Shown here: piece by piece, positions 19,907 to 64,000 of the stretch
Numbering within the stretch: position 1 is the first letter of the stretch
Layout: the number at the start of each line of letters is the position of its first letter
Source of the DNA: Streptomyces spiramenti
GTDB lineage: Bacteria > Actinomycetota > Actinomycetes > Streptomycetales > Streptomycetaceae
Direction: 5' to 3'
Length of the DNA stretch: 64,000 nt
Assembly (NCBI RefSeq): GCF_012034385.1
Contig: NZ_JAAVJB010000002.1
Location: 1 to 64,000 of the forward strand
Position numbers and translations under genes: made by a program
The notes under the pieces: model-generated
Databases searched by the model: none
What the model saw: the letters and a program-made list of their open reading frames with translations, nothing else
Told to the model about the DNA's origin: nothing

Positions 19907-19912
19907 CAGCCG

Positions 19913-19955: not shown

Positions 19956-19973
19956 GGTCGTTTCTGCGACGGG

Positions 19974-42980: not shown

Positions 42981-43122
42981 CCTCTCGCCGACCCGGCCTG
43001 GACGCTGCGGCTGTCTCCGCAGGCGCTCCAGTGCGTCGGCGGGGTCTGTGCGGACGGACTGGTGAACCGTTCTCGGAGCCGAACCTCGCCCCTGTTGTAC
43101 TGACCGAATCCTTGGAGGACCT

Positions 43123-43941: not shown

Positions 43942-43944
43942 GGC

Positions 43945-45759: not shown

Positions 45760-45826
45760 GCCCCCCCACCGCTCAGAACTGCCCCGCCACCTCCCCGCCC
45801 CCGACGAACAGAGGACCTGCACCACC

Positions 45827-46771: not shown

Positions 46772-47430
46772 CCACCACGACCGGCCAGGGCGGAGAGGGG
46801 CCCCTTCCCCAGGTGCCCCTCTCCGCTCTGGAGCACTACGCCTACTGCCCCCGCCAAAGCGGCCTCATCCTCCTGGAAGACGCCTTTGAGGACGACGCCT
46901 CCACCGTCCGCGGCACCCTTCTCCACCAACGCGTCGACACCCCAGGGAACCGGGGCCGTGGCACCATCCGCACCCTCCACCGCCTCCCCGTCTACCACGA
47001 CGCACTCGGCCTCTACGGCTACTGCGACACCGTCGAACTCCACGCGAGCGGCCGAGTCCTCCCCGTAGAGCACAAGTCTGGCCGCTACCTCCCAGGCGGC
47101 CCCGCCGACCTGCAAACAGCAGGCCAAGCACTGTGCCTGGAGGCCATGTTCAACACGACCATCCAACGCGCCGCCGTCTACTCCGCAGCAGACCGCCGCC
47201 GCCACACCATCACCATCGACCAGCCACTACGCGACCGCGTAGCCGACCTCACCCACGAAATCCGCGACATGCTCACCACCAGTGCCCTCCCCACCCCCGT
47301 CGCCGACAACCGCTGCCGACGCTGCTCCATGGCCACCTCCTGCATGCCCCGCGTCCTCACCGGTACAGACCGCTTCCAGCGCGCTCTCCACGACCTCTAC
47401 CACCCCGACCCACCGGCGGAACAGGAATGA
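46768..47430 (+). CDS. cas4: Cas4 RecB-like exonuclease
   Basis: This 220-residue adaptation nuclease trims prespacers and helps select the PAM-proximal end. It has a Cys in YAYCPRQ, a RecB-type active site (HQRVDT, YCDTVEL, VEHKSGR with E-x-K), and the C-terminal Cys set CRRCSMATSC completing a 4Fe-4S cluster. GTG 46768 overlaps the cas7c stop by 4 bases and its stop overlaps cas1 by 4 bases. Confidence 0.95.
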   Translation: MTTTTGQGGEGPLPQVPLSALEHYAYCPRQSGLILLEDAFEDDASTVRGTLLHQRVDTPGNRGRGTIRTLHRLPVYHDALGLYGYCDTVELHASGRVLPVEHKSGRYLPGGPADLQTAGQALCLEAMFNTTIQRAAVYSAADRRRHTITIDQPLRDRVADLTHEIRDMLTTSALPTPVADNRCRRCSMATSCMPRVLTGTDRFQRALHDLYHPDPPAEQE

Positions 47431-48461: not shown

Positions 48462-48751
48462 TGGACCTCCTGCTCACCTACGACGTCGACACCACCACCC
48501 CCGAGGGCGCCCGTCGCCTCCGACGCGTCGCGAAGCTCTGTGAAGGCTACGGCCTACGCGTCCAGAAGTCCGTCTTCGAGATCGTCGCCGACGAAGCCGG
48601 CCTCCTGCGCCTCCTGGCCAGCATGGACGCCACCATCGACGCGGACTCCGACAGCATCCGGATCTACCGTCTGCCCCACAACGGCCTCACCTCAGTCGAG
48701 ACCCGCGGCATCGCCCAGCTACAGTCACACCGTGACGACTTGGTCGTCTGA
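48461..48751 (+). CDS. cas2: Cas2, type I-C
   Basis: This 96-residue ferredoxin-like protein starts DLLLTYDVDTTTPEGARRLRR and has the YGLRVQKSVFEIVAD strand typical of Cas2. It forms the dimeric core of the Cas1-Cas2 integration complex. It is the last gene of the operon; the leader of array 2 starts at once after its stop. Confidence 0.96.
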   Translation: MDLLLTYDVDTTTPEGARRLRRVAKLCEGYGLRVQKSVFEIVADEAGLLRLLASMDATIDADSDSIRIYRLPHNGLTSVETRGIAQLQSHRDDLVV

Positions 48752-48895: not shown

Positions 48896-51800
48896 GTGGC
48901 GACCGTCCTCCGGGGCGGTCGAGGATCGCAACCACGAGGTCGACCGCATCTGCCGCCGCCGGACCCGCACGTGGCGACCGTCCTCCGGGGCGGTCGAGGA
49001 TCGCAACCTCAAGGCACACGGCCACCCGCCCTGGAGCGACAGTGGCGACCGTCCTCCGGGGCGGTCGAGGATCGCAACCGGTCATGGGGTTGTCGCGGTC
49101 AGATGGGACGTAGGGGGTGGCGACCGTCCTCCGGGGCGGTCGAGGATCGCAACCATGCGCCGCCCTCCCGCCTGTCGGCGCCGTCGCCCCGTGGCGACCG
49201 TCCTCCGGGGCGGTCGAGGATCGCAACCTCACGACGATTCGTGTCTCCAAGCTCTCCACCACGGTGGCGACCGTCCTCCGGGGCGGTCGAGGATCGCAAC
49301 GCGGCGCAGAGGACGGGGCGCTGGAACATGCCGAGTGTGGCGACCGTCCTCCGGGGCGGTCGAGGATCGCAACGCGGGGAGTCTCAGACAGGTGCGTCAC
49401 GTACTCCGTGTGGCGACCGTCCTCCGGGGCGGTCGAGGATCGCAACCGCCCGGCGTGATGGCCTACGGGATCGACGTCGGGGGTGGCGACCGTCCTCCGG
49501 GGCGGTCGAGGATCGCAACCGCTCGCCAGACGCGCATGCGGGTCAGTCGGCCGCCGCGTGGCGACCGTCCTCCGGGGCGGTCGAGGATCGCAACTTCATC
49601 GAGCTGAGCGAGTGCACCGACGAGCAGGGCGTGGCGACCGTCCTCCGGGGCGGTCGAGGATCGCAACCAAATTTCCGACCGCCCGCGAGGCGGTCGGGGC
49701 GCGCGTGGCGACCGTCCTCCGGGGCGGTCGAGGATCGCAACTTGGTGGCGGTCAACCTGCACGATCCTCGCGACGGGTGGCGACCGTCCTCCGGGGCGGT
49801 CGAGGATCGCAACCAGGAGGCCGGCAACCGCACCGATGAGATGTACCACCGGTGGCGACCGTCCTCCGGGGCGGTCGAGGATCGCAACCGCTGCGAGCGG
49901 GACGTGGGGGAGCTGCGCACCGTCGTGGCGACCGTCCTCCGGGGCGGTCGAGGATCGCAACGCGTACGCGGTCCGGCGGTCCGCGCTCCACTCCGATGGT
50001 GGCGACCGTCCTCCGGGGCGGTCGAGGATCGCAACGATGCCATCCGTGCCGAGTCGCTGAAGGAGCGGCAGGGTGGCGACCGTCCTCCGGGGCGGTCGAG
50101 GATCGCAACGGCGAGACGGTCGCGGGCGGTGTCATCGAGCGGTGGTGGCGACCGTCCTCCGGGGCGGTCGAGGATCGCAACCGTAGAGGTTCAGGTTCAG
50201 GAAGTGGGTGGTTGTAGTGGCGACCGTCCTCCGGGGCGGTCGAGGATCGCAACGGCCATCACCTCGCGGCCGCCCACCATGCGGTGCAGGTGGCGACCGT
50301 CCTCCGGGGCGGTCGAGGATCGCAACCCGCAGATCGCAGGGCCCTGCCACGTGGGCAGCGCACGTGGCGACCGTCCTCCGGGGCGGTCGAGGATCGCAAC
50401 TACGGGCCTGGCGAAGCCCGGTTCGACGCGCACGGCGTGGCGACCGTCCTCCGGGGCGGTCGAGGATCGCAACCGGGTGATCAGGGTGTCGGGGTGATCG
50501 GGGCCGAGCGTGGCGACCGTCCTCCGGGGCGGTCGAGGATCGCAACTTCACGGCGTGTCCTCTCTCTACGTCGGGACGGCGGGTGGCGACCGTCCTCCGG
50601 GGCGGTCGAGGATCGCAACTTCACGGCGTGTCCTCTCTCTACGTCGGGACGGCGGGTGGCGACCGTCCTCCGGGGCGGTCGAGGATCGCAACCCCCGGGC
50701 GGTCCGCGTGTGCGTGCGGCTGGTCACGTGGCGACCGTCCTCCGGGGCGGCCGAGGATCGCAACCTGAACCCCTTCCGTGGGTTGCCGGCGCCGCCCGCG
50801 TGGCGACCGTCCTCCGGGGCGGTCGAGGATCGCAACCACCACGACCAGGACCAAGAGCAGCAAGGGCGGCGTGGCGACCGTCCTCCGGGGCGGTCGAGGA
50901 TCGCAACGGGGCGCGTCCCTTCGGGCGGCACCCGCCGACGGTGGTGGCGACCGTCCTCCGGGGCGGTCGAGGATCGCAACGGGCGCCCGGCCATGTCCAG
51001 CAGGTGGCGCAGCGTGGCGACCGTCCTCCGGGGCGGTCGAGGATCGCAACTCCGTTGGCCAGGATCTCGGCGTAGACGGCCGCTAGTGGCGACCGTCCTC
51101 CGGGGCGGTCCAGGATCGCAACTCCGATCCGAGACCACGTCGCCCCCGAGATCCGGGGTGGCGACCGTCCTCCGGGGCGGTCGAGGATCGCAACGACGGC
51201 ACCCGGAGAAGCTTCGGGGCCTCACCCCGGGTGGCGACCGTCCTCCGGGGCGGTCGAGGATCGCAACCGGACCATCGGGTCGGGGAGGGTGTCGGACGTG
51301 ACCCGGGTGGCGACCGTCCTCCGGGGCGGTCGAGGATCGCAACTCGTCCTCGGCCGCGCGCCGCGCCAGGGCGGCGGTGGTGGCGACCGTCCTCCGGGGC
51401 GGTCGAGGATCGCAACCGCTCGCACGGGTCGCCGATCTCGCTGGGCCCGATGTGGCGACCGTCCTCCGGGGCGGTCGAGGATCGCAACGAGTGAGCCAAG
51501 TTGACCTGCACCTACGAAGGTACATGGTGGCGACCGTCCTCCGGGGCGGTCGAGGATCGCAACATCGCCCACTGGGCGACGGCTGCGACGGCGAGCGCCG
51601 CGTGGCGACCGTCCTCCGGGGCGGTCGAGGATCGCAACTGCGGGGCGTAGGCGTCGCGGTGCTCGGGCGCTCCGTGTGGCGACCGTCCTCCGGGGCGGTC
51701 GAGGATCGCAACCTCCCGCTGCACGAATGGGTGGGGCTGGGGCCAGCGGGTGGCGACCGTCCTCCGGGGCGGTCGAGGATCGCAACGTCGAGTGCTGGAG

Positions 51801-53032
51801 GAAGGAGATCGGGAACGTCGTAAGTGGCGACCGTCCTCCGGGGCGGTCGAGGATCGCAACCCCCGACCCCACCACCACCGCCTGGTGGTGGGGCCGGGGT
51901 GGCGACCGTCCTCCGGGGCGGTCGAGGATCGCAACTGGGCCGCCGTGAACGGCGCCGCCGCCGCTGAGGCCGTGGCGACCGTCCTCCGGGGCGGTCGAGG
52001 ATCGCAACGCGACGGCGGCGGCGCTGCCGGCGAGCAGACCCGCGTGGCGACCGTCCTCCGGGGGCGGTCGAGGATCGCAACAACGTCTCGCCGCCCTGTC
52101 CGCGCCTCCGCGCCGGGGTGGCGACCGTCCTCCGGGGCGGTCGAGGATCGCAACCGATCTGGTACGACCGACCACGACGCATCCTGTACATGTGGCGACC
52201 GTCCTCCGGGGCGGTCGAGGGTCGCAACCCCGTCGATGTCGACCGCGTCCACCTCGGTCACCGGTGGCGACCGTCCTCCGGGGCGGTCGAGGATCGCAAC
52301 CCGACCGCGACGAGGACCCCGATCCCGCTGACGTTGTGGCGACCGTCCTCCGGGGCGGTCGAGGATCGCAACTTCTCCGTCCCGGTGGGGACCATGAGCA
52401 TCTGGAACGGTGGCGACCGTCCTCCGGGGCGGTCGAGGATCGCAACCGGCGCGAAGTCGCCCGGCTGAAGGGCAAGATGCCAGGTGTGGCGACCGTCCTC
52501 CGGGGCGGTCGAGGATCGCAACCTCTCAGCCGATGAAATCGACCTAGAGTCATGGGTGTGGCGACCGTCCTCCGGGGCGGTCGAGGATCGCAACCAGCCG
52601 TCGGCGTCGTAGCTCGTGTCGTCCTCGATGGTGGCGACCGTCCTCCGGGGCGGTCGAGGATCGCAACGTGATCAACCGGGTCTACAACGACGGCATCCGC
52701 AAGGTGGCGACCGTCCTCCGGGGCGGTCGAGGATCGCAACGAGTTGCCAGCGGTGGCGTTGCGGCAGCACGCGATGTGGCGACCGTCCTCCGGGGCGGTC
52801 GAGGATCGCAACTCCCGACCCACCACCAGGCGGTGGTGTGCCCGGAGAGTGGCGACCGTGCCCCGGGGCGGTCGAGGATCGCAACCAGGAGAAGGTCGGC
52901 GCCTGGCTGCACCGCCGCTCCGGTGGCAACCGTCCTTCGGGACGGTCGAGGATCGCAACCATGATTTCATCTGCTGTCGCCACGGCGCGTCCCGCGTGGC
53001 GACCGTCCTTCGGGGCGGTCGAGGATCGCAAT
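48896..53032 (+). CRISPR. CRISPR array 2 (type I-C repeats, about 57 repeats)
   Basis: By hand count there are 57 repeats of 37 bp beginning GTGGCGACCGTCCTCC and ending CGGTCGAGGATCGCAAC, separated by spacers of about 34-39 bp. Most repeats are identical. Variants occur at 50728, 51086, 52044 (one extra G) and 52192, and the last three (52849, 52923, 52996) are degenerate, marking the leader-distal end. Spacers 50547-50582 and 50620-50655 are identical. The repeat folds into a 9-bp stem closed by a UCCG loop. Confidence 0.98.
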
Positions 53033-53069
53033 GTCTTCGGAGCCGCCCTCGGCGACGTCCTGCGACCAG

Positions 53070-53086
53070 GTGGCGACCGTTCTTTT
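53070..53086 (+). repeat. Truncated terminal CRISPR repeat
   Basis: GTGGCGACCGTTCTTTT preserves only the first 11-12 bases of the repeat, at normal spacing (37 bp) after the last full repeat. It is the eroded oldest end of array 2. Confidence 0.75.
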
Positions 53087-53215
53087 GGCTGGCGACGGTC
53101 TGTCCGCCGCAGTTGCGCAGCGCGCCGTTCCCCTACCGGCTTATCAGTTGACGGGCTCGGCGGCGTGGGCCGGAGCAGCGTTCGCCGCTGAGTGGGCCCC
53201 GCGACCGTTCGGCCT

Positions 53216-53246
53216 AGCCGGTCGGCGGACATCTCGCCGACCGGCT
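53216..53246. terminator. Strong inverted repeat downstream of array 2
   Basis: The arms AGCCGGTCGGCG and CGCCGACCGGCT are perfectly complementary over 12 bp with a 7-base loop. It lies 130 bp past the last repeat and could end the pre-crRNA transcript. There is no U-run, so it may be rho-assisted or simply a structural repeat. Confidence 0.45.
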
Positions 53247-53363
53247 CCTGCCGCGCGTGGTGCTGCTGACCGTGGCGCTGATACGGGTGCTGGCGATGGC
53301 CGGAGGAGTCATCGCGCTTGCCTCTGGCGCAGGCGTAGCAGTGGCCTTGGCCATCGCGGGTCA

Positions 53364-53420
53364 TCGAATATCCCAAGCGGGGCTTCGCCATCGAACAGGA
53401 TGTCTCCGACGACGTACGCA
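53364..53420 (+). pseudogene. Inverted fragment of a ydcF-like gene 3' end
   Basis: About 55 bp encoding EYPKRGFAIEQDVSDDVR on the plus strand match the C-terminal coding region of the intact ydcF-like gene (54108-54160, minus strand) with few changes. It is a small relic copy in opposite orientation, so the two form a distant inverted repeat. Confidence 0.7.
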
Positions 53421-53571
53421 CGCCAAGGCAAAACTCGGCTGCCGCGCCCAGGTTCTGCGTACCGTTGTCCACCCGTCTCGCGGGCGCCGACCACGTCTCG
53501 CGCGCTACTGCGCCGGTCTGCCAGCCTCGGCCAGCAGGCAGCCCGCTGCCGCTGGCCGGGGCCGTCTGGTG

Positions 53572-53925
53572 ATCAACAGGACGGACATCGAGCGCCGCGG
53601 CCGGGGGCAGGTCGTCCGCGTGATCGTCGACGACCACGCACTCGTGGCCCGTCGAGTCCAGCCTCTCGAGGGAGCGCTGGTAGATGAGCGGAGACGGTTT
53701 CCGTACACCTTCGAGTTCCGACAGGATGACGAGCGCGTCGAAGAAGCCGTCGCACATGCCCAGCTCCTCGTACGGGTTGTACGGCTCGACGCCGAACGAG
53801 TTGCTGAGCAAAGCCAACTTGATCTCAGCCGCACGCGCCCGCCGAGCGGCGGCGACGATGGGCGGCCCCGACCGGAGGTTGGCCAGGGCGCGCCGCATCA
53901 GGCCCGGGGTGCGCGTGGTAAGCAC
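53572..53925 (-). pseudogene. HAD-superfamily hydrolase fragment
   Basis: The minus strand encodes KLALLSNSFGVEPYNPYEELG, KPSPLIYQRSLERL and CVVVDDHADDLPPA, which are motifs II-IV of a HAD phosphatase. The motif I DxD region at the N-terminus is absent and the frame runs into unrelated sequence at the 3' side. It is truncated at both ends and cannot be active. Confidence 0.72.
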
Positions 53926-54044
53926 GCCGCCGAAGTTGAGGATCAGGCCCCGCTAGGTAGCTGGCAATGCGGCCTCCTGGGGACTCGTGTAACGAGAGCG
54001 GGAGGAGGAGCGGAGCGGCTGCGGGGCGAGGAGGGTGTAGGGGG

Positions 54045-54713
54045 TCAAGGAGTGATGAGGCGGCTGGTGAAGCCGTCGCGGATCATGGACTCGTACGCGT
54101 GGCGTACGTCGTCGGGGACATCCTGTTCGATGGCGAAGCCTCGCTTGGGATATTCGAGGATTCGCTGGAGGTCGCCGACGAGCATGTCGATCACCAGCTT
54201 CTCGTCACCGATGCTTTTGACGTAGTGGTCGAGCTCCATGGGCTCCGAGGTGCAGATCGCCTCCACCCCGGGCCACAGCTTGCGTGCCGCGGCGAAGGAA
54301 CGGCGCTCCAGATAGGGCTTGGATACCAGAAGCACGGCGGACGGCGTGACGCCGGCGGAGGCCAGGGCTGCGCGGGAGAACGTGATGTTCTGGCCGGTGT
54401 TCGAAGCCTTCGGCTCCAGCACGATCGACGCCTCCGGGACGCCGAGGTCGATCGCGTGCTCGCGGTAGTGCACAGCCTCCCCGCGGGGAAAGCGGGCCTT
54501 GGTGGTGGGGCTGTTGCCGCCGGTGAAGACCAGCACCGGGAAGAGCCCGGAGCGGTAGAGACTGGCGGCGAACGAGGCCACGCCGAGGTCGTGCCTTCCC
54601 AGGCCGATCGCTGCATCGACGGGGCGCACTTCGTGGTGCATCTGGTGGTAGTCCCACACCGCCCTGGCCCGATGCCACTGGTCGTCGGTAATGGGTCGGT
54701 TGCTATTGCGCAC
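54045..54713 (-). CDS. YdcF/ElyC-family protein (DUF218)
   Basis: This protein of about 222 residues has the DUF218 fold: AIGLGRHD near the start, GLFPVLVFTGG, the acidic/arginine site EAVHYREHAIDLGVPEASIVLEPKASNTGQN (about 85-115) and VLLVSKPYLERRS. Relatives act in envelope or vancomycin-related functions in E. coli, but soluble actinobacterial members are uncharacterised. GTG 54713 follows GGGGA by six bases; GTG 54731 is an alternative. It looks intact amid fragments. Confidence 0.83.
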   Translation of the reverse strand: MRNSNRPITDDQWHRARAVWDYHQMHHEVRPVDAAIGLGRHDLGVASFAASLYRSGLFPVLVFTGGNSPTTKARFPRGEAVHYREHAIDLGVPEASIVLEPKASNTGQNITFSRAALASAGVTPSAVLLVSKPYLERRSFAAARKLWPGVEAICTSEPMELDHYVKSIGDEKLVIDMLVGDLQRILEYPKRGFAIEQDVPDDVRHAYESMIRDGFTSRLITP

Positions 54714-54742
54714 GCTGTGTCCCCTGGTCACCGTCGCTGCTG

Positions 54743-55123
54743 TCAGCTCGTCCCACTGCTGCCGACCATGATGCTCCTGATACTGCGCAGCTGGTGCACG
54801 AGGCCGTACCGCTCCGCTCTGGCCGCGGCTTTGTCGAGAGCGACGAAACCGTCGTCCCTGGTTGCTGGGTCGGACAGCAGGATGTGGCCATGCGCTGTGT
54901 CCAGGCGGACGCGCTGCATCGGGGAGTCGGCGTTGCCGCTGTCGCGGGCGATGGCGATGAAGCGCAGGGCGGCGGTGAGGTCTCCGGCCCCACGACGGGC
55001 GAGGGCGATTTTCTGATGGGCGACTGACCAGTCCTCGGGTTCGGTCAGGATTTCGAACTCGCGGGTGGCGGCTTTCATGACCCGGGTCGCGTAGTCGTGC
55101 TGCCCGTCCTTGCTCAGCGCCAT
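54743..55123 (-). CDS. C-terminal part of a TPR-type regulator
   Basis: This 126-residue helical protein has HQKIALARRGAGDLTAALRFIAIARDS, resembling the TPR-like tail of Streptomyces XRE/TPR regulators that often precede ydcF-like genes. No HTH domain is present upstream in any frame, so it is either a fragment or a stand-alone tail. The next gene to the left, 30 bp away, is ydcF-like. Confidence 0.5.
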   Translation of the reverse strand: MALSKDGQHDYATRVMKAATREFEILTEPEDWSVAHQKIALARRGAGDLTAALRFIAIARDSGNADSPMQRVRLDTAHGHILLSDPATRDDGFVALDKAAARAERYGLVHQLRSIRSIMVGSSGTS

Positions 55124-55228
55124 CCGCAGACCGGGGCCGGAGGGCGCCGTCGGCGCTGGGAGGTAGAGGGCACCCTGCTCACCTGACGGTGGCCGTCCTC
55201 TTCGGGCGCCGAGGGCACCGCGCTCGGG

Positions 55229-55495
55229 CTATGCGCATAGGTCAGGGTCAGTGCTCACGGCAGTGCCGCTGTCGATGCTGAGAACGCGGAGCAGGTCCGC
55301 GGTGATCACGCGGTAGGCGCTGCCGAGCCGCAGCACCTTCACGGGGTACTGGTCACGCTTGGCCAGGGCGTAGCCGGTGCTGCGGCCGATCGCCAGCGCT
55401 CGGTTCGCGGTATCGAGGCTAATCACGACGGGCAGGGCGAGCAGCTCGTCGCGGGTCATGCCGGTGGAGGGAGCGGGGTGTCCGAAGGTGGTCAT
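55229..55495 (-). CDS. Helix-turn-helix (excisionase-like) DNA-binding protein
   Basis: This 88-residue protein has VISLDTANRALAIGRSTGYALAKRDQYPVKVLRLGSAYRVITADLLRVL, a compact winged-helix of the excisionase/helix-turn-helix 17 type. A similar protein is encoded at 60227-60535. It diverges from the XRE gene at 55587 across 91 bp. The target is unknown; it could be the excision factor for E2, but distance from int2 argues against this. Confidence 0.72.
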   Translation of the reverse strand: MTTFGHPAPSTGMTRDELLALPVVISLDTANRALAIGRSTGYALAKRDQYPVKVLRLGSAYRVITADLLRVLSIDSGTAVSTDPDLCA

Positions 55496-55573
55496 AGTCG
55501 CTCTCCGATCGTGTGGGGCCTCAGCTGACGGAGAACAGCTATCACGGATATGGCAGCATCACATTCTTGGTGC

Positions 55574-55588
55574 ATGAATTGCATTCAT
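55574..55588. promoter_or_regulatory. Operator-like palindrome over the XRE start codon
   Basis: ATGAATTGCATTCAT has perfect 6-bp arms around TGC and overlaps the first bases of ATG 55587. An XRE protein binding here would block its own translation start or promoter. Confidence 0.5.
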
Positions 55589-56116
55589 GGCAAATGATGA
55601 GTGGTCCACCCAGCTCACCACACGGGTGGCCGAGCAGGTCCGCGAAGCCCGCAGGGTTGCCAGCCTCACGGTGGCACAGACCGCCGACGCCTGCGCCGCC
55701 CTCGGCGTTCCCGTACAGAAAACGACGATCACGAACCTGGAGACCGGCCGCCGGACCTCGGTCGATCTCGCCGAGTTCCTAGTGCTGGCCAAAGCTTTGG
55801 AAGTGCCGCCGATCGCGCTGTTGTTCCCTCTCGGCGCTACGGCGACCGTCGAGGTGCTCCCGGGCAGCCTGTGTCCACCTGGGAGGCGCTGGCCTGGTTC
55901 ACCGGAGAAGCACGCGCGGACCGGGCTGCCGCCGAGAGCAGTCCCCAGCGGGTGCTCGACACCTTCCGCGCCCACAGCGACGCAGTGGCCGCCGCCTCCG
56001 TCTCCGCCCGTCTGGCGAAGGACCGGCGCCGCGCTGCCATCCCGTCCAGGATGCTTCCCGTCGCGCTGCTGGAAGCCGACCGTTTTGTACATGCCCCGGT
56101 GCTCCGGCAGTGGTGA
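55587..56116 (+). pseudogene. XRE-family regulator with a frameshift
   Basis: The first 90 codons encode an XRE HTH (VAEQVREARRVASLTVAQTADACAALGVPVQKTTITNLETGRR). Near 55860 the coding bias switches to the +2 frame, which continues with VSTWEALAWFTGEARADRAAAESSPQRVLDTFRAHSDAVA and ends at 56116. A single frameshift therefore splits the gene, unless sequencing error or programmed shifting explains it. Confidence 0.7.
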
Positions 56117-56146
56117 CCGTCCTCCGAGGCGGTTGAGGATCGCAAC
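56110..56146 (+). repeat. Orphan type I-C CRISPR repeat
   Basis: A single 37-bp unit matches the array 2 repeat at 34 of 37 positions (changes at repeat positions 5, 18 and 25). It lies 3 kb beyond the array with no neighbouring repeat, immediately before the cas6e remnant. It is a relic of a larger or separate array. Confidence 0.85.
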
Positions 56147-56164
56147 CCGGTGTCCACCCAGGGG

Positions 56165-56273
56165 AGGCCAGACGTCCGCCGTGACCTTCGAAGGCCACCT
56201 CCGCATCACCGACCCGGCGCACTTCACCATGCGCCTGCTCAACGGCATCGGCCCACAGAAGGCATACGGCTGA
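56165..56273 (+). pseudogene. cas6e: 3' remnant of type I-E cas6e (casE)
   Basis: The frame ending at 56273 reads SAVTFEGHLRITDPAHF then LLNGIGPQKAYG, matching the C-terminal region of Cas6e, where a VTFEG...DP strand and a GIGxxKA(Y/F)G glycine-rich loop precede the end. The final residues and at least 80% of the protein are missing. Followed by cas1e and cas2e remnants in the canonical order. Confidence 0.68.
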
Positions 56274-56323
56274 GGCCTTCTGTCTGACCCTCGCCTCGCT
56301 GCCCGCCCGAAACACCCACAGCC

Positions 56324-56760
56324 ATGGCTGACATCTGGTGGAAGGTTCACCCACACGACCTGCACCGCATCGTCGACCGTGTGTCCGGCGTCTAAGTCGA
56401 ACGCAGCCACCTCGACCGCGAGGACAACACCGTCGTCAAGGTCGGTGACGCGTTCGCTGCCGGCGACCACCTCAACCGGCTCCTGTCGGCCGCCAACGGC
56501 ATCTGCCACGCCGTCATCGTGGGCCTCGGCGCCGGCCCAGGGCTCGGCGTCGTACACACCGGATCGGCGATCTCCTTCAGACTCGACATCGCCGACCTCT
56601 ACAAGGCTGAATACACCATTCCTCTCGCCTTCTACCTGGCAGCCAACGGCCTCACCGAGGAACGCGACGTACGCCTTGGCCTACGCGACAGAATCGCCGA
56701 GACCAAACTCCTTTCGCGTGTCGTCCAGGACGTCAAGGTCCTCCTGACGCCAGCAGGCAC
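56324..56760 (+). pseudogene. cas1e: Decayed type I-E cas1e
   Basis: ATG 56324 starts WWKVHPHDLHRIVDRVSGV, then an in-frame TAA at 56393-56395 where a Tyr is expected, then VERSHLDREDNTVVKV. An internal deletion joins this to LLSAANGICHAVIVGLGAGPG, VVHTGSAISFRLDIADLYKAE and YTIPLAFYLAANGLTEE, the conserved C-terminal core of Cas1e. Both the nonsense codon and the deletion make it non-functional. It is distinct from the intact I-C cas1. Confidence 0.8.
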
Positions 56761-56916
56761 CGACTACGAAGCCCCGGAGACCAGCGAACTCTGCGACGAA
56801 CGCAGGGACTCTGTCTCCGCTGGTGTCAACTGGGCCACCCACCCCATGGGCCCGCCCACCACCCGGGCAGGCTTGGGGAACAGCACTTCGCCAGCCCCGG
56901 CACCGGACCAACCTTG

Positions 56917-57003
56917 CTGACCGTCACCGTCCTTATCGCAGCCCCGGAGGGCCTCCGCTGCCACGTCACACATTGGATGTTCGAAGTCAACCCCGGAGTC
57001 TAG
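56917..57003 (+). pseudogene. cas2e: Decayed type I-E cas2e
   Basis: The 28 codons TVTVLIAAPEGLRCHVTHW then MFEVNPGV match the beginning of Cas2e, but the initiating ATG is replaced by CTG and a TAG stops the frame at 57001 where Phe/Tyr is usual. The remainder is lost to an IS fragment that abuts it at 57000. Confidence 0.75.
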
Positions 57004-57281
57004 GCCTTGCAGTCGTTGCGGTTGCCGGGTAGCGGTCGGCCGACGGCGGACTTGGAGATGCCGAACAACGGGGCTACGGCAGGATGAGGTTGGTCCGCCA
57101 GTAGGCGGCGACCAGGCAGCACCCGGTCCTCCAACGGCAAGCTCCACGGCCGGCCCCTGCGCACCGGGTCCGCCCCTTCGCGTCGCAGCGCGGTGACCAG
57201 CTTGCCGAACTGCCGCGGGCTCAGCCCGGCGAACGGGGCTATCCAGGACGCCTCCGACGCCGTGATCACACCAGCCACCAC
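57000..57281 (-). pseudogene. IS5-family transposase N-terminal remnant
   Basis: The frame reads GLSPRQFGKLVTALRREGADPVRRGRPWSLPLEDRVL and then LFGISKSAVGRPLPG, the N-terminal HTH region of IS5/Tnp4-type transposases, with a disrupted centre. The DDE catalytic domain is absent. Its insertion appears to have truncated cas2e. Confidence 0.75.
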
Positions 57282-57586
57282 AAGATCATCTCACTGCTGA
57301 CCTGCACTACGGGACAGGCCTTAGACGGGACAACCGTCAGGCACCTTCACCCGCGCGCCGCTCCGAGATCCGCGATCTGCTGGTCTGGCTCCTGCTCCTC
57401 GGATCCTACGGCGTGGCCGAGGCGATCACCAGTCCGACCGAACTGAACCTCCGGCTTCGCCGCACTTCCGGCCCGCGGGAGGTGCGACGGACACGCCGAA
57501 TGTGCGCTGTTGCGCGCCCCTGCGTGCGTCCGGCGCACCGGACGGAAGCGCTCGCCGCCGAGAAGACCGAGTGCTGTGCTGTGCTG
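57282..57586. other. Gap before the Crp/Fnr gene
   Basis: The reading frame of the Crp/Fnr gene stays open upstream through this 305-bp stretch. The encoded peptide lacks family similarity and has many Arg/Cys, so I regard it as non-coding. No promoter is identified with confidence. Confidence 0.4.
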
Positions 57587-58309
57587 ATGATGCACGGCTC
57601 ACTCTCCTACGGTCGCGTGGCCTTCCTCGACACGTTGCCGTCCGAAGCACGCGCCGCCTTTAACCGGCTCGGCACTCCGCGTTGCTACTCAGCGGGGGAT
57701 GTACTTATCTACGAGGGCGACCACGCACAGGAGCTGGTGGTCCTGCACGTGGGACTGGTGAAGGTGACCGCCCGGCTGGACCGGGACCGGGAGTCCCTCG
57801 TGGACATCAGGGTCGCTGGGGACATCGTGGGCGAGGTGGCTGCGATGGGCGTGGGGCCGCGATCAGCCACGGTCACCGCCTGTGGTGAAGTGGCCGCCAC
57901 CGTCGTCCCGAGGCGTGAACTGGAGTCCTTTCTACTCGCCCACCCCGAGATATCGCTGTCGCTCATGAGGATGGTCTGTGGTCGGCTGCGTCGATCCGAC
58001 CGCCTGCGGCTTGAGTTCGGCGGGTACCCGGTCCCTGTCCGGCTGGCACGCGTACTCCTCGAGCTGGCCGCCACCTACGGGCAGCGTGAACGGAATTCAC
58101 TGCGTATCGATGTGGCCCTGTCGCAGCCCGAGTTCGCCGCCCTCACCGGTGCTGGAACACGCAGCGTGCAGAAAGCACTTGCGCGGCTGAGACAGAAGAG
58201 AATCATCACCACCGACAACCGGCGGACCTATGTGCGGGACCTGGACGGGCTGCACGAGACAGCCCTCCTTGGGGCACGTAATGGGTCCACGCCAAGAAAG
58301 CCGCACTAA
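57587..58309 (+). CDS. Crp/Fnr-family cyclic-nucleotide-type regulator
   Basis: This 240-residue protein has an N-terminal cNMP-binding beta-barrel (RCYSAGDVLIYEGDHAQELVVLHVGLVKV, DIVGEVAAMGVGPRSATVTA) and a C-terminal Crp winged helix with LSQPEFAALTGAGTRSVQKALARLRQKRII. The phosphate-binding cassette reads GEVAAMGVGPRSATV, close to the GE-L-x5-RSA pattern of cNMP binders. ATG 57587 or 57590 is the likely start. Its stop lies inside a strong terminator, and a cyclase-like gene follows at once, suggesting sensor and signal source side by side. Confidence 0.88.
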   Translation: MMHGSLSYGRVAFLDTLPSEARAAFNRLGTPRCYSAGDVLIYEGDHAQELVVLHVGLVKVTARLDRDRESLVDIRVAGDIVGEVAAMGVGPRSATVTACGEVAATVVPRRELESFLLAHPEISLSLMRMVCGRLRRSDRLRLEFGGYPVPVRLARVLLELAATYGQRERNSLRIDVALSQPEFAALTGAGTRSVQKALARLRQKRIITTDNRRTYVRDLDGLHETALLGARNGSTPRKPH

Positions 58310-58324
58310 TGCGGCTTTCTTGGC
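58291..58324. terminator. Perfect hairpin terminator enclosing the Crp stop codon
   Basis: The arms GCCAAGAAAGCCGCA and TGCGGCTTTCTTGGC are perfectly complementary over 15 bp around the loop CTAA, which contains part of the TAA stop. It should end the Crp/Fnr transcript and separates it from the cyclase operon. Confidence 0.85.
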
Positions 58325-58393
58325 CGTCCTCGCCCCTTCCGCTCACAGTTGGCGTGTACCACACCCAACACGCCTGGAAGGTGGAGTTTTGTC

Positions 58394-59206
58394 ATGAAAG
58401 AGATCCCTCCTCTCCGGTCTTCGGCCTGCAGACCGCATCGCCGGCTGTGCCTGGCCGTAGACGTGGAGCAGTACAGCCGTCTCGACACTCGGACACAGTC
58501 GGCTGTCCAATCCGAGCTGGTACGGATGCTGGACGAGGCGGCGGCGGTGGCCGGACTGGACCGGTCGGCGTGGATACGTCAGCCCCAGGGCGACCTGGAG
58601 TTCGCTGTACTTCCCGAGGACACACCGGAGGACGCCGTGCTGGGTCCCCTCGTCCATCATCTCGCGGTCCGTCTCTGGGACCGCAACGCCCGCCCCGCTG
58701 CCCAGCGGGTCAGGCTGCGGATGGCCTTGGACACCGGCGTGGCCGTGGACGCCGCCCTCGGCCACGCCGGCCCGGCGCCGGTCGCCGTGGCACGCTACGT
58801 CAACGCGCCCCAGCTCAGAGCCCTACTCGCTACCCTCACCGCGGCGGACCTCGCCGTGATCGTGTCGGACCGGCTGTACCAGGACGTCGTGCGGGCCGGG
58901 TGGCCGGACCTCGACCCCGCCCAGTACACGCGGGTCCATATACGGGTGAAGGAGTTCGGCGGATACGGCTGGGTCCGCGTACCGGGCCACGCGCCCGACG
59001 ATGTCCGGTCGGCCGTCGCAGAGGCGCCGGAGCCCAAGCCCGAGCCCGAGCCCTCACGGGACCCCGGTGACCCGAGCCGGACGCCCTTGTCCCAGCACGT
59101 CAACCAGGGCGCAGCCGTCGGTCGGGACGTCGTCGGCGGCCTCACTATCGGCGCTGTCGGCCTGCCTGTGCCCCCTCCGTCGGCTGGGTCCGGGCCAACC
59201 CGGTGA
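58394..59206 (+). CDS. Class III nucleotidyl-cyclase-like protein with C-terminal signalling motif
   Basis: This 270-residue protein has a cyclase homology domain at about 17-195: CLAVDVEQYSRL with Asp23, QPQGDLEFAVLPE with Asp67, LRMALDTGVAV and PVAVARYVNAPQ follow the class III cyclase strand-helix order, and both putative metal-binding Asp are kept. A proline/glutamate linker (205-225) leads to a short Gly/Val-rich motif HVNQGAAVGRDVVGGLTIG at 235-253. It may make a cyclic mononucleotide or be a non-catalytic relative. AAGGTGGAG precedes ATG 58394; it heads a coupled operon. Confidence 0.68.
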   Translation: MKEIPPLRSSACRPHRRLCLAVDVEQYSRLDTRTQSAVQSELVRMLDEAAAVAGLDRSAWIRQPQGDLEFAVLPEDTPEDAVLGPLVHHLAVRLWDRNARPAAQRVRLRMALDTGVAVDAALGHAGPAPVAVARYVNAPQLRALLATLTAADLAVIVSDRLYQDVVRAGWPDLDPAQYTRVHIRVKEFGGYGWVRVPGHAPDDVRSAVAEAPEPKPEPEPSRDPGDPSRTPLSQHVNQGAAVGRDVVGGLTIGAVGLPVPPPSAGSGPTR

Positions 59207-59490
59207 CGGCCCCTTACCCGGCCCCGCTCTGGCAGGAGCGGGGCGACAGCCAGTGGGCGGACTATGGGGTGAACATCGGCCACGCCGTGTATGGCGACGT
59301 TCACTTCCACCCGCCCGCCTCGTCCGCCGCACGGTCGCGGCGCCGGAACGGCACGGCGCGCTCGGCTCGCATGGCGCGGCACGCGGCTGTGCGATCGGCC
59401 CTGACCGAGCTCGCGCGCGTCTGCGATCGGGCCGCCGCCGCCCTTGCCTACTTCCGGCCCGATAGGGCCGGAAAGGAGAAGAAGACATGA
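59203..59490 (+). CDS. Small protein of the cyclase operon
   Basis: This 95-residue protein contains YGVNIGHAVYGDVHFHP (about 24-40), which parallels the Asn-x-Gly...Gly-x-Val pattern at the end of the preceding cyclase-like protein. A basic Arg/Ala-rich helical half follows. The GTG start overlaps the cyclase stop (GTGA), and its stop overlaps the next gene's ATG. I recognise no named domain; shared short motifs may mediate assembly between the two. Confidence 0.6.
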   Translation: MTAPYPAPLWQERGDSQWADYGVNIGHAVYGDVHFHPPASSAARSRRRNGTARSARMARHAAVRSALTELARVCDRAAAALAYFRPDRAGKEKKT

Positions 59491-60230
59491 CATTAACCGG
59501 ATCAGGTGGCGTCTTCGCCCTGATCGACCGGGGTGTTCCCGGACTGCCCGGTGGCAAGCAGCCGTCCCTCACAGTGCACGTAGACTCCCGCACCCTCCAG
59601 CTCTCCCCGGAGGAGAGCAGGAGGGTGCTCTACGGTTCGCGGAGGGACGCGGCGCTGGGCGCGGCGGTATGGCAGCAGGCCGTCACCGATGCCCGGCGGG
59701 AGCCGCGGGACGGCGACGGCACTGGACGGCTGTTCGTCGTGTGGCTGGCCCTGCCCGGGCTGTACCGAAACCTCCACCGGATCCTGCGTCGCTGGCGGTG
59801 GCTCGGCCGGGCAGACCTGGAGGCGGAGGCCGTCCTGGTTGTGCTTGCCGCCCTCGACGCGGCAGCCCCGGCTGGCCCCGACACGGGCGGCCGCCTGATC
59901 AAGGAGGCGGTGAACGGGATGTGGGCTTACGCGAAGCGCGTCACGAGGGAGACCTCCGTGGTCGACATCGATGCCTTCGCCGAGACTCGCAACGCCGCCG
60001 TCCCACCGGAGGAAGGGCCCCGTCCGTCCGAGGGATGGGAAGTGCACATCACACCCCCGCCCCGCCGCGAGGGCCTGTACGCCACGCTCCGCTTCGCCGA
60101 GCCGCGCCCCCGGGAAGGCTGCCCGCGGACCGGCAGCCACCTGCCCGACCTGGTGTTCCGGGCCCGCCGCCACGAGGACGCCGACCTCATCGGCACGCTG
60201 GTCCTGCGCCCGGCAGGAGCCCGGCGGTGA
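59487..60230 (+). CDS. Hypothetical protein of the cyclase operon
   Basis: This 247-residue protein has a central Arg/Trp/Leu-rich helical stretch LYRNLHRILRRWRWLGRADLEAEAVLVVLAALDAA (about 90-125) reminiscent of proteins paired with excisionase-type HTH genes in Streptomyces islands. It ends in a beta-rich region (LPDLVFRARRHEDADLIGTLVL). It overlaps its neighbours on both sides by four bases, so it is an integral operon member. The family and function are unknown to me. Confidence 0.62.
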   Translation: MTLTGSGGVFALIDRGVPGLPGGKQPSLTVHVDSRTLQLSPEESRRVLYGSRRDAALGAAVWQQAVTDARREPRDGDGTGRLFVVWLALPGLYRNLHRILRRWRWLGRADLEAEAVLVVLAALDAAAPAGPDTGGRLIKEAVNGMWAYAKRVTRETSVVDIDAFAETRNAAVPPEEGPRPSEGWEVHITPPPRREGLYATLRFAEPRPREGCPRTGSHLPDLVFRARRHEDADLIGTLVLRPAGARR

Positions 60231-60535
60231 GCGGCCGGTCCAGCCTGCCGCTCGGTTTCGCGGAGGCTCTCGACCTACCCCTGAGCGTTGACCTGCGTAC
60301 AGCCGCCCGCGCCTTCGGTATCTGCCCCGCGACGGCGTACAAGCTGATCCGCCTCGGCGCCTTCCCGTGTCCTGTGCTGAGGGTCGGTGGACGCTACCGC
60401 ATCCCCACCGCCTACCTGTTACGCGCCCTCGGCATCGAGGAGCGGCCGGTGTACGCCGTCCCCCCGGCGGACGATGCAGCGCTCGCAGTCCAATCCGACG
60501 ACATCCACGCTCACGCATCGGAGGTTCTCGCGTGA
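60227..60535 (+). CDS. Excisionase-type HTH protein of the cyclase operon
   Basis: This 102-residue protein has SVDLRTAARAFGICPATAYKLIRLGAFPCPVLRVGGRYRIPTAYLLRALGI, a MerR/excisionase winged helix closely parallel to the protein at 55229-55495. GTG 60227 overlaps the previous stop and its stop overlaps the next start. It may regulate the operon or recruit its products to DNA. Confidence 0.75.
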   Translation: MSGRSSLPLGFAEALDLPLSVDLRTAARAFGICPATAYKLIRLGAFPCPVLRVGGRYRIPTAYLLRALGIEERPVYAVPPADDAALAVQSDDIHAHASEVLA

Positions 60536-61668
60536 TCATGTCACAGTTGCTCCGACAAGAGTCCGACCAGCTCCGGAGTTGTTTCGTTATCGGCCCCATC
60601 GGGGACCCACATGCCGCGCACGGCAGTCCCGAGCGCGAGGCGTACGAGCACCACCTCGGCATCTTCGAGCAGGTGATCGCCCCCGCTTGCGAGAAGTACG
60701 GCATCACCGCGGTGCGAGCTGATGGCATCGCGAACGCCGGTGACATCAACGAGCAGATCTGCCGGCACGTCGTCGAGTCCGAGCTGGTCGTCGCGGACGT
60801 CAGTGGCGGCAACTCCAACGTGATGTACGAGTTGGGGCTGCGGCACATTACCGGCAAGCCGACGATCCATATCGGGGAGGCAGGACAGCTGCCCTTCGAT
60901 ATCGCGTCGATCAGGACAATCCGCTATCAGCGGGCGCGCAGCCATCTGGCCGGAGCGCGCAAGGAGATCGAGAGCGCTCTGGAAGCCGGACTTCGGGACG
61001 GCTTTGAACTTCTCACACCGGCACGGGTGCTGCGTGGACTGCAGACCAGTGACGGACCGGCCCCTGCTCCCGAAGCCAGCAACGACGGGAACGGTGAGGA
61101 GGAGGACACACCGGGGCTGCTCGATGACTTCGCGGTGATCGACGACGGGTTGGACGAGATGGCCGCCGACATGGAAGCGATCACGAAAACGATCGAGACG
61201 ATCGGAGTGTTGACCGAGCAGTGCGGCACCGAGATGCTCGATCTGACCCAGGCGAACGTGCCCATGAGCGCGCGGCTTGCCGCCATCGCCCGGTACTCGG
61301 AGACGATCAGCGCGCCCACGGGCGAACTGAACGCTTTCGCGGCCGCGTTCGCGGAACGGATGATGACCCTTGACAGTGGTGTACGGGCTGCGCTGGGGCT
61401 CATCGAGATGACGCCGCCTGAGAACCGGGGTGAGGGTGGGGAGGAGTTCCTCGAGCAACTGATATCTCTGGATGAGGCCGCGCAGGATGGTCTGGCGCAG
61501 ATCAGCTCCTTCGGCGCCTCGGCTGGCGCCATGGTCCGCCTGAGCCGGCACCTCCGGAAGCCAGCGAAGGAGATCTCCGCCGCAGTGAAGCAACTTACCT
61601 CCGCCATCACGAGGATGGGGGAGTGGGCGGCCAAGGCCCGTGCGCTGGCGGGCGGCGACGCTGCATGA
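60532..61668 (+). CDS. Nucleoside-deoxyribosyltransferase/TIR-like effector candidate
   Basis: This 378-residue protein has an N-terminal Rossmann-like domain with SCFVIGPIGDP (about 16-26), ADGIANAGDINEQICRHVVESELVVADVSGGNSNVMYELGLRH (about 63-105) and GKPTIH. The N-x-x-x-YE signature with Glu100 is the catalytic-type residue of the nucleoside 2-deoxyribosyltransferase/TIR-like glycosidase group. A long helical C-terminal region (about 190-378) follows. It overlaps the HTH gene by four bases. NAD- or nucleotide-cleaving effector activity is inferred. Confidence 0.68.
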   Translation: MIMSQLLRQESDQLRSCFVIGPIGDPHAAHGSPEREAYEHHLGIFEQVIAPACEKYGITAVRADGIANAGDINEQICRHVVESELVVADVSGGNSNVMYELGLRHITGKPTIHIGEAGQLPFDIASIRTIRYQRARSHLAGARKEIESALEAGLRDGFELLTPARVLRGLQTSDGPAPAPEASNDGNGEEEDTPGLLDDFAVIDDGLDEMAADMEAITKTIETIGVLTEQCGTEMLDLTQANVPMSARLAAIARYSETISAPTGELNAFAAAFAERMMTLDSGVRAALGLIEMTPPENRGEGGEEFLEQLISLDEAAQDGLAQISSFGASAGAMVRLSRHLRKPAKEISAAVKQLTSAITRMGEWAAKARALAGGDAA

Positions 61669-61853
61669 CCCCGTGCTCTCAGGGCCCTCTCACGGGCGGT
61701 GTGTCACAGGGGGGGGAACATGCTGGGCGGTGGATAGGGCGCCCTGAACTGTGCGCTCGGGATCACGGGTATGCGTCACCTTGTGTTCGCCCCTTGCCTC
61801 GGAGGGAGGCCTCCACTCGGCGGCGTGCACCTCATCGGGCACGGCTGTGCGTA
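61669..61853. other. Gap between effector gene and orphan repeat
   Basis: No gene is supported in these 185 bp. No clear terminator is seen after the effector gene except the hybrid repeat hairpin itself. Confidence 0.4.
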
Positions 61854-61894
61854 GCGATCCTCGACCGTCCTCCGGGGCGGTCGAGAATCGCAAC
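61854..61894. repeat. Orphan hybrid CRISPR repeat
   Basis: From 61862 to 61894 the sequence equals repeat positions 5-37 with one change. To the left, GCGATCCTCGACC (61854-61866) is the reverse complement of the repeat's own 3' end. The result is a hairpin with 14-bp arms, as if two oppositely oriented repeats had recombined head to head. Confidence 0.78.
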
Positions 61895-61974
61895 CAGCGC
61901 ACGGCCCGGACCGCGAAAAGGGGTGCCGGCCGGCGAGCCCGACGGTCGTGCCCTCGGCCGGTGCTGCGGCGGAC

Positions 61975-62150
61975 GCACCACTAAGACCGTCAAACGGCGC
62001 AACACCGTCGAACGGTGCATCAATCGATTGAAGCTGTGGCGCGGCATCGCCACCCGCTACGAGAAGATCGCGACCATGCACCGGCAGGACTCGCCATCGC
62101 GGCCACCTTCCCCTGGTCCGCCCGCCGATTCAAACGAGACTGCCTCGTCG
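61975..62150 (+). pseudogene. IS5-family transposase C-terminal remnant
   Basis: The frame reads KTVKRRNTVERCINRLKLWRGIATRYEKIA, the conserved C-terminal part of IS5/IS1182-like DDE transposases (the final catalytic Glu in ERCINRLK), followed by a frameshift into LAIAATFPWSARRFKRD-like sequence. Only this end remains. Confidence 0.72.
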
Positions 62151-62401
62151 CCCCCGGGGAGATCGGCAGGCCTGCGGCATCACCCCCATTATCGCCTCGC
62201 GCCGGCGGGTCATCGCTTCGCCTGGAACATGTCGACGCACCCGTGAAGCTGCGCGAGAGCCGAAGAGGAGTAACTGCCTCTCACGGGTCTCTCACGGACT
62301 GTCTGTCACGGCCAGCGAGCTGCCGGACTGAGAGGCGGACGTGGCGGCCCTGACCTGCTTGTTGCGGACTGGCAGGTATGCGACGACCTGTGGTTCGCCC
62401 A

Positions 62402-62446
62402 CTGGGGGTCAAGGGGTCGCAGGTTCAAATCCTGTCGTCCCGACAG
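62402..62446 (+). other. Attachment site 3 (right end of E2 / left end of a third element)
   Basis: This is a third identical copy of the 45-bp tRNA-Pro 3' end. Identity with site 1 continues for about 100 bp to the right, through the terminator hairpin and into the integrase 3' end, so the sequence to the right derives from an element closely related to E1. Confidence 0.92.
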
Positions 62447-62452
62447 CAGTCG

Positions 62453-62495
62453 AAAGGCCTGTTGGACTGGAGAAGATCCAGCTCAACAGGCCTTT
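62453..62495. terminator. Hairpin terminator next to att site 3
   Basis: The same AAAGGCCTGTTG/CAACAGGCCTTT hairpin as at 19913-19955, at the same distance from the att core. Confidence 0.8.
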
Positions 62496-62513
62496 GGTCG
62501 TTTCTGCGACGGC

Positions 62514-62745
62514 TCAGGGAACGCTCCGCAGGTGGCCGCCGGGCGCCCGCCGTGGGACCACTGTGGGACCAGCCGGGCCAGTGCCGGACCCGGAACCCCC
62601 GAGAAGCCGCTCAGCGACCGCCCCGCACGTTCGACCGCCCGCATGTCCGGGTGGAGGTAACGCTGCGTCGTGGTCAGCGAACCGTGTCCCGCGATCCTGC
62701 GCAGAACGTGGAGCGGGACGCCGGCGTCAGCCGCCCGAGTCAGGT
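62514..62745 (-). pseudogene. C-terminal remnant of an E1-type integrase
   Basis: The minus strand encodes GVPLHVLRRIAGHGSLTTTQRYLHPDMRAVERAG, nearly identical to the E1 integrase C-terminus including the catalytic His and Tyr. A frameshift follows near 62590, since the E1-like ending GHLRSVP and its stop at 62514 are in another frame. Everything upstream of the AADAGVPLH segment is gone, replaced by another gene's 3' end at 62745. Confidence 0.85.
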
Positions 62746-63278
62746 CAGCAGCCGGGACCGGTCGAGGTGGACAGTGTGAGCGCCAGGGCGGCCTGGCGAA
62801 CTTCGACCTCCCACCTGCGGACATCGATTCCGACGGAGTACCTGATGCAGCATCCGCAGGACGGGAACAGTGCCACCAGCGCGTCCTCCTCAGCAGTGTC
62901 GGTCTGCACGTCCCCCCAGTCGTAGATCGCAAGCTCCGCGGGAGAGACGTTCTCGGACACGAGTCGCGCGGCCATCCGGCGCAGGGCGTGACGTCGCGCC
63001 AGGCCCTGCGCCGGTGGTGTGACCGCGGCTTCGGAGAGCGCGTGTTCAAACGCGTCGCGAGTGTCGCGGGGGTCGGCAGTGCGGGGCCACCCGGCGAGGT
63101 CGCACAGGCCGGGGGTGTCGATGCCGGCTGCCACTGCCTCGGCGGCGATCATCGGTAGATCTTCGGGGCGAAGTTCACCAGCACGCAGGCGGCAGGCCGC
63201 TTCGCGCAGGGCGCTGAGCCCGCTCCTCTGTGGGGCGGGTGCCGGTGTCGCGCCCTCCGCGGCGGGCCGCTGGGACAT
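62745..63278 (-). CDS. Hypothetical protein, 3' end at the integrase remnant
   Basis: This 177-residue acidic, helical protein has LREAACRLRAGELRPEDLPMIAAEAVAAGIDTPGLCDLAGWPR and a FEHALSEAAV segment, a pattern I have seen only in uncharacterised Streptomyces proteins. GGGAGAG lies 7 bases before ATG 63278. Its last residues (STSTGPGC) run into the integrase remnant, so the original C-terminus may be altered by the junction. Confidence 0.65.
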   Translation of the reverse strand: MSQRPAAEGATPAPAPQRSGLSALREAACRLRAGELRPEDLPMIAAEAVAAGIDTPGLCDLAGWPRTADPRDTRDAFEHALSEAAVTPPAQGLARRHALRRMAARLVSENVSPAELAIYDWGDVQTDTAEEDALVALFPSCGCCIRYSVGIDVRRWEVEVRQAALALTLSTSTGPGC

Positions 63279-63543
63279 GTCAGGACTCTCCCTCGCTCAG
63301 GTGGTCGTGGTGTGGTGCGCGGCGCTGGGCGCCTGTTCGGTGGTGGTCGAGCACGCTATCGCGACGTCGGGAGCGGGTGGTGTGTTCGAGTGCTCGGCGC
63401 CGAGCCCGCCGGCGGCAAGGCCGGTGGGTCGGCGGCGGCTCAGTCGGCTGGCCGCAATCACCGGCAGGTTCGGGTGGAAGCCGTAGGGGCCGCACCGCGG
63501 CGGGAGCCGGGGCGTGGCCCCTACGGCTCCTCACCGACCGGGC
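63279..63543. other. Intergenic stretch
   Basis: A 69-codon plus-strand frame from 63277 starts inside the opposite gene's start codon and has no ribosome-binding site. I see no other gene. The region should contain the promoter for the leftward hypothetical gene. Confidence 0.4.
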
Positions 63544-64000
63544 TCACTTGCTGGTGAGGGTCCAGTTGCCGCCTTCGTTGGTGCCGGAGTCGCCGAGGGC
63601 GGTCCACCGGGTGTCGTCGGGGCCGAGGGCCGCGTGGAGATAGGCGGCGATCGTGTCGGCGACGAACGTGACCCGGGCCGGGTTCTCGTCGGTGGTCTCG
63701 GCGACCGCCTCCCCGGCGATGCCGCCCATGGTGTGCTCGGCTTCGGCGATGGTGAGCAGACTCTTGGGTGCCGGGGCGAGGTGGTAGGCGTCGGTGAACC
63801 ACTCCGGCCCCCGGGTGGAGAGCTGCGACTGGTCCTTGCCGCCCGAGATGATCAGGGCCGGGGTGGTCATGGTGGAGAAATCCGGCCGCATGAAGGGCAG
63901 GTGCTCCGCCGTGAACGGGGTCAGGGTGTCCCCGGTCCCGGCTGCCGTGATCAGTGCGCCGGCCGACACCCCGGGGTGGGAGAAGTCCTCGCCGGGAAGG
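63544..64000 (-). CDS. Alpha/beta-fold hydrolase, C-terminal part (5' end beyond window)
   Basis: The last 151 codons are visible; the frame remains open to the window edge with GEDFSHPGV before SAGALITAAGTGDTLTPFT. The segment ALIISGGKDQSQLSTRG carries the acid-loop Asp region, and EAEHTMGGI the catalytic His (EHTMGG) of a serine alpha/beta hydrolase. The nucleophile elbow lies outside the window. The substrate is unknown. Confidence 0.82.
   Translation of the reverse strand, partial: LPGEDFSHPGVSAGALITAAGTGDTLTPFTAEHLPFMRPDFSTMTTPALIISGGKDQSQLSTRGPEWFTDAYHLAPAPKSLLTIAEAEHTMGGIAGEAVAETTDENPARVTFVADTIAAYLHAALGPDDTRWTALGDSGTNEGGNWTLTSK

Follow-up and report, generated by a model that had tools for sequence, protein, structure and literature searches.

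The window, the whole 64,000-nucleotide stretch of Streptomyces spiramenti DNA analysed here, contains an island at 19861–62444 whose ends are marked by a perfect 44-bp repeat of a tRNA-Pro 3′ end. At 62401–62444 the final 44 bp of the tRNA are repeated with zero mismatches, and 19861–20193 and 62401–62732 share 90% identity. From these repeats and its integrase, RepSA, and FtsK-like genes, the region 19830–62444 is probably a pSAM2-type integrative element with a type I-C CRISPR-Cas system as cargo; pSAM2 itself uses a tRNA-Pro. Its main features upstream of the remnant described below are:

19830–19904, tRNA-Pro
19974–21233, island integrase
21517–22902, island RepSA initiator
26834–28186, island FtsK-like transfer gene
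39697–40391, minus strand, I-C array of 10 repeats
40695–48751, plus strand, complete I-C gene set (cas3, cas5c, cas8c, cas7c, cas4, cas1, cas2), assigned with profile models
48896–53032, plus strand, I-C array of 56 ungapped repeats and one with an indel

The best model for the I-C cas7 was one common to I-B and I-C. The predicted activity of this I-C locus would follow from its intact genes and conserved repeats. The repeat with the indel lies near 52044–52081, and each array has an identical neighbouring spacer pair (50547–50655 and 39884–39990). The I-C cas DNA of the window was found in 0 of 15 other genomes searched. Just past the att-like repeat, at 62445–63278, frames resemble a tyrosine integrase C-terminus by eye, which suggests a further tandem element; of these frames, 62745–63278 was searched and had no Pfam match.

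Broken cas6e, cas1e, and cas2e sequences

Near the right end of the island, 56179–57001 has homology to Cas6e, Cas1e, and Cas2e in the order of the operon, and is on this basis the remnant of a type I-E operon. The features of this part of the window are:

55587–56109, plus strand, broken HTH regulator gene (HTH_31, E = 1.8e-5, under cut-off)
56110–56146, plus strand, first stray degenerate I-C repeat (34/37 bases match)
56147–56178, plus strand, about 32 nt between the stray repeat and the cas6e homology (no match >18 nt in the loci compared)
56179–56315, plus strand, remnant of the cas6e 3′ end (PF08798 match and 86.9% DNA identity to S. bohaiensis)
56324–56894, plus strand, cas1e remnant (TIGR03638; residues 1–38 and ~165 to the C-terminus)
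56917–57000, plus strand, remnant of the cas2e 5′ end (first 28 residues; start codon lost, remainder missing)
57002–57324, minus strand, truncated IS5-family fragment (94–98% identity to a copy on contig C474 of the same genome)
61858–61894, plus strand, second stray I-C repeat (last 33 nt with one mismatch)

Profile searches. The original prediction had placed terminal parts of Cas6e, Cas1e, and Cas2e here, in canonical order and next to an I-C locus, and both profile matches and colinear DNA bear it out, as do the complete I-C gene set and two large arrays. The remnant pieces entered the profile searches separately and the stop codon was not read through. The translated search that had been proposed as a check scored well beyond chance for the Cas6e C-terminus with PF08798 (E = 1.9e-10, 41.8 bits, cut-off 25) and for the Cas1e sequence after the stop with TIGR03638 (E = 9.1e-30, 103.8 bits, profile positions 165–268 of 269; the whole-protein cut-off of 215.6 was not reached). 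The Cas2e N-terminus fell slightly below the cut-off of 24.7 for PF09707 (E = 4.3e-5, 24.0 bits), and the Cas6e C-terminus matched TIGR01907 below its cut-off of 45.2 (E = 4.2e-5, 24 bits). The Cas1e sequence after the stop had no Pfam match at E ≤ 1, the 23-aa Cas1e N-terminus alone matched no family in NCBIfam or Pfam, and the Cas2e N-terminus had no NCBIfam match.

DNA match. Streptomyces bohaiensis 11A07 (L033, NZ_JAAVJC010000002.1) has an open type I-E operon whose 3′ end (cas6e-cas1e-cas2e) is colinear with the remnant, with 86.9% DNA identity at 56179–56438 and 83.5% at 56431–57001. This relative, of the kind proposed for comparison, keeps all three genes open and has an array of 28-nt repeats next to them. 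The remnant had been called an adaptation module, but it is the tail of the operon, the last three genes that stand before the array in S. bohaiensis, and one of them, cas6e, is the crRNA-processing gene. The window has only these broken ends of the I-E operon genes. Among 392 genus genomes, 157 match 56100–57020 somewhere (E ≤ 0.001), many of the matches being short, and the best match outside the S. spiramenti genome is genome G135. The S. bohaiensis genome matched only the I-E part and the IS part of 53050–64000 at E ≤ 1e-20, plus three short stretches near att and beyond. When the sequences flanking the I-E locus of S. bohaiensis were searched against the S. spiramenti genome, without a positive control, one gave a single 129-base match and the other none.

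Decay. In the cas6e remnant an in-frame TGA stands at 56271 and 4 nt are inserted at 56279–56282; the remnant overlaps the cas1e start in the same way as the two genes overlap in S. bohaiensis. Positions 56324–56437 align with residues 1–38 of the S. bohaiensis Cas1e at 87%. Comparison with S. bohaiensis confirmed the predicted TAA in cas1e (56393–56395), the internal deletion, and the loss of the cas2e start. The internal deletion, at 56436/56437, removes 393 bp (385–393 by alignment, given an 8-nt overlap between the blastn pieces), and cas1e also has a 12-nt deletion plus deletions of 1, 22, and 1 nt near its end. A 133-aa frame with Cas1e C-terminal sequence is still open at 56519–56920, and an expressed Cas1e fragment from it is possible. 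The cas2e remnant aligns with residues 1–28 of the S. bohaiensis Cas2e at 75%. Since all three genes are truncated and disrupted, the remnant cannot yield a working Cas6e, Cas1e, or Cas2e.

Relaxed constraint. Over 271 codons, the remnant and S. bohaiensis differ by 44 nonsynonymous and 34 synonymous changes and 2 stops; in four intact cas1e pairs the nonsynonymous/synonymous counts were 48/76, 55/107, 56/160, and 54/111. Changes polarised with seven outgroup sequences fell at codon positions 1/2/3 as 10/6/10 on the remnant side vs 3/0/6 on the S. bohaiensis side. Read from these substitution patterns, constraint is relaxed on the remnant side. In cas1e alone, third positions differ most (39/197, vs 16/198 first and 11/198 second positions), so some of the divergence is older than the decay.

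Lineage of the remnant and the resident I-E operon

Contig C461 of the same genome carries a complete I-E operon (cas3, cse1, cse2, cas7, cas5, cas6e, cas1e, cas2e), with about 40 repeat copies in 3.1 kb beside it. Each of its genes has an I-E or Cas3 model over the cut-off; for cas3 these were the domain models cas3_core and cas3_HD, while the whole-protein model PRK09694 was under. The remnant shares 47.6% Cas1e identity with this operon over 103 residues. A tree of 45 chosen loci, the remnant, and the genome's own copy (in the annotated frame) paired the remnant with S. bohaiensis (97/87), with branch lengths of 0.22 for the remnant vs 0 for S. bohaiensis, and a constraint placing the remnant with the genome's own intact Cas1e was rejected (p-AU 0.0007). 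This tree was built on 109 columns, its branches are long, and its bootstrap had not settled; an earlier version omitted locus L116 for its shortness, together with rows that duplicated another sequence. Cas1e identity, repeat sequence, and tree together rule out the remnant as a copy of the C461 operon, and no near-copy of the broken I-E stretch was found elsewhere in the genome. With the C461 operon intact and the remnant placed apart from it in the tree, I-E persists in this genome and the remnant comes from another lineage.

A check for I-E repeats of 28–29 bp had also been proposed. It found an array of the C461 operon's own, but no repeat of the S. bohaiensis type in the window or the genome (≤3 mismatches, this repeat type only). 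We also compared 63 I-C spacers, leaving out the two beside the indel-bearing repeat, with the array-masked window and the compared loci for a sign of I-C aimed at I-E, and found no near-full-length match. The best was 21/36 bases in the flank of locus L038, and a separate 15-base match to contig C461 (L002) is of a size expected by chance. The I-C gene set of the island and the separate I-E gene set of C461 would, we infer, make up the working immunity of the cell.

Edges of the remnant and the stray I-C repeats

Left edge. The HTH gene has a frameshift near 55860 and ends early at the stray I-C repeat at 56110. Full-length homologues are present in loci L132 and L135, and in genomes G330 and G333 the homologue is longer and is followed by a frame that resembles a tyrosine recombinase by eye.

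Right edge. The cas2e homology stops at 57001 and the IS fragment starts directly after it, inside the transposase gene. The fragment has an internal deletion and keeps one end, 57324, that is common to the C474 and S. bohaiensis copies; its identity to the C474 copy, which has an open 256-aa DDE transposase frame, is 97.9% at 57002–57048 and 94.2% at 57037–57324. The TAG at 57001 is present as predicted, but because the cas2e homology ends where the IS fragment begins, the codon at 57001–57003 is a product of the junction and not a point mutation in a decaying cas2e. About 3.2 kb downstream of the S. bohaiensis cas2e, and in the same orientation, lies a piece of this IS; the element may thus have been part of the older locus and predate the decay.

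Beyond the IS fragment, a module at 57338–61650 is syntenic in genomes G001, G121, and G332 and is found in pieces in G143, where the same 44 bp of tRNA 3′ end adjoin it. Positions 57413–61668 encode a Crp-like regulator, a nucleotide cyclase-like protein (by eye, no Pfam match over cut-off), an uncharacterised protein, and a protein that matches a PADLOC TIR-effector model (E = 2.7e-11). The set is a possible cyclic-nucleotide defence module.

Stray repeats. The orphan I-C repeat predicted to precede the remnants was found at 56110–56146, about 32 nt before the cas6e homology; its three mismatches compare with 13 for the best match in 20 mononucleotide shuffles of 53101–64000 (plus strand only). 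The flank of the second stray repeat, at 61858, extends the palindrome. Predicted hairpins had z values of −5.3 for the second stray repeat, −0.9 for the first, and −3.0 for the array repeat, and the predicted fold of the first is −12.7 vs −20.3 kcal/mol for the array repeat. Both are repeat mimics outside an array on a mobile element, and they are missing from six related stretches (L132, L133, L134, L135, L137, L138). A simple sigma-70 scan of 55850–57100, around the first stray repeat, gave no promoter-like site, and Rfam gave no match within 53000–64000 at gathering scores. In viruses, a 19-nt core of the stray repeat was present in 4 contigs and the 37-nt repeat in none (≤13 mismatches), so these matches were put down to chance.

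Origin of the remnant and comparison with known systems

Taken together, the locus very probably holds the decayed tail of an I-E operon of the S. bohaiensis lineage, brought in by a putative lateral transfer or rearrangement, cut by deletions at both edges, and now inert. In this account, lateral transfer or rearrangement is the most likely way in which the tail reached the island. The junctions suggest that the 5′ part of the operon was lost to a deletion ending near the stray I-C repeat, and that the rest of cas2e and the array were lost to a deletion ending inside the nearby IS5-family element. The remnant is most likely without present function.

The block at 56147–61857 could instead have entered or recombined with the I-C array, leaving the stray repeats at 56110 and 61858 as array leftovers. 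Both stray repeats have the orientation of the main array, between them lie the I-E tail, the IS fragment, and the Crp/TIR-like module, and there is a precedent in S. avermitilis, where part of one report describes an array split by transposase genes (PMC4762764). However, a single repeat is left on each side, the second covers only 33 nt and its flank is altered, and the middle module is without such repeats in the pieces of G001, G121, G332, and G143. We regard this origin as unlikely.

The original prediction held that I-E was replaced by I-C. Under replacement in place, a working I-E system on the island or its ancestor would have decayed after I-C arrived and took over. The I-E debris does lie 3.1 kb from the end of an I-C array within the same tRNA-bounded island, and the decay sits on the remnant's own branch. 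Several findings make this improbable: the complete I-E operon still on C461, the lack of any S. bohaiensis-type repeat, and the junction of both remnant edges with unrelated debris. The I-C cas DNA was in none of the 15 other genomes searched, so no finding orders the arrival of the debris and of I-C. With a different intact I-E operon elsewhere in the genome, the remnant looks like ordinary debris and is not proof of replacement. The island may once have harboured an I-E system, as had also been suggested, but capture of a fragment explains the remnant equally well.

The stray repeats might also be solitary repeat units acting on the neighbouring I-C system in the manner of RNA anti-CRISPRs. 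They are lone repeats of the co-resident subtype on a mobile element, the predicted hairpin of the second is very stable, and part of one report shows that solitary repeats carried by mobile elements can work as RNA anti-CRISPRs, against I-C among other subtypes (PMC10651486). Yet here the repeats share an island with the I-C system, are absent from the six related stretches, and have no promoter-like site in the scanned region, and the predicted fold of the first is less stable than that of an array repeat. This reading is very improbable, as is its extension in which the same units serve both as decoys or a built-in brake on I-C and as the recombination endpoints that trapped the I-E tail; relics of array rearrangement are the likelier explanation of the repeats. 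That the remnant is a chance similarity or a misassembly or misjoin is scarcely credible: the genome is a draft of 474 contigs, but chance is ruled out by a colinear 84–87% DNA match across three genes, and a misjoin is opposed by substitutions and indels spread along the match and by the lack of a near-copy elsewhere in the genome.

As the decayed tail of an S. bohaiensis-lineage operon, the locus is a clean case of cas-operon decay, datable against a close intact relative and lying beside an apparently complete second subtype. The decay is marked by stops, indels, an internal deletion, and IS-linked loss. It is also a warning that local debris is a poor guide to subtype replacement in a genome that retains the first subtype at another place.

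A literature search found no publication on this locus, which does not prove it unpublished. pSAM2-type elements have been surveyed, and part of that survey reports CRISPR-Cas components on a T4SS-type ICE of Frankia (PMC3218068); streptomycete I-E variants that lack cas1 and cas2 are covered in part of a review (PMC12231136). The stray repeats resemble the units described in part of PMC10651486 as lone subtype repeats on a mobile element, and are unlike them in that no promoter was seen, they are absent from six stretches, and their island is shared with I-C. The C461 operon is of the same subtype as the remnant and has eight genes, but differs in Cas1e (47.6% identity over 103 residues), in its repeat, and in its place in the tree.

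I-E adaptation genes are broken with IS112-family (IS5-like) elements on two Streptomyces plasmids too, the linear plasmid of S. albidoflavus NBC_01331 (L116, NZ_CP108380.1) and that of Streptomyces sp. FR-008 (L117, NZ_CP009803.1). They were the two records in which the match covered an annotated IS112-family element, among the 20 listed of 192 matching plasmid records, and the breaks are in cas1e near codon 224 in one and in cas2e after codon 14 in the other. Both plasmids still have most effector genes annotated and an IS with an annotated transposase, whereas the window has the operon tail and an IS fragment only. The NBC_01331 plasmid also has a lone I-C-like repeat at 15318, with 7/37 bases mismatched. 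S. bohaiensis 11A07 has the same cas6e-cas1e-cas2e order as the remnant at 84–87% DNA identity, but its genes are open and followed by an array of 28-nt repeats, whereas those of the window are broken with no such repeat left.
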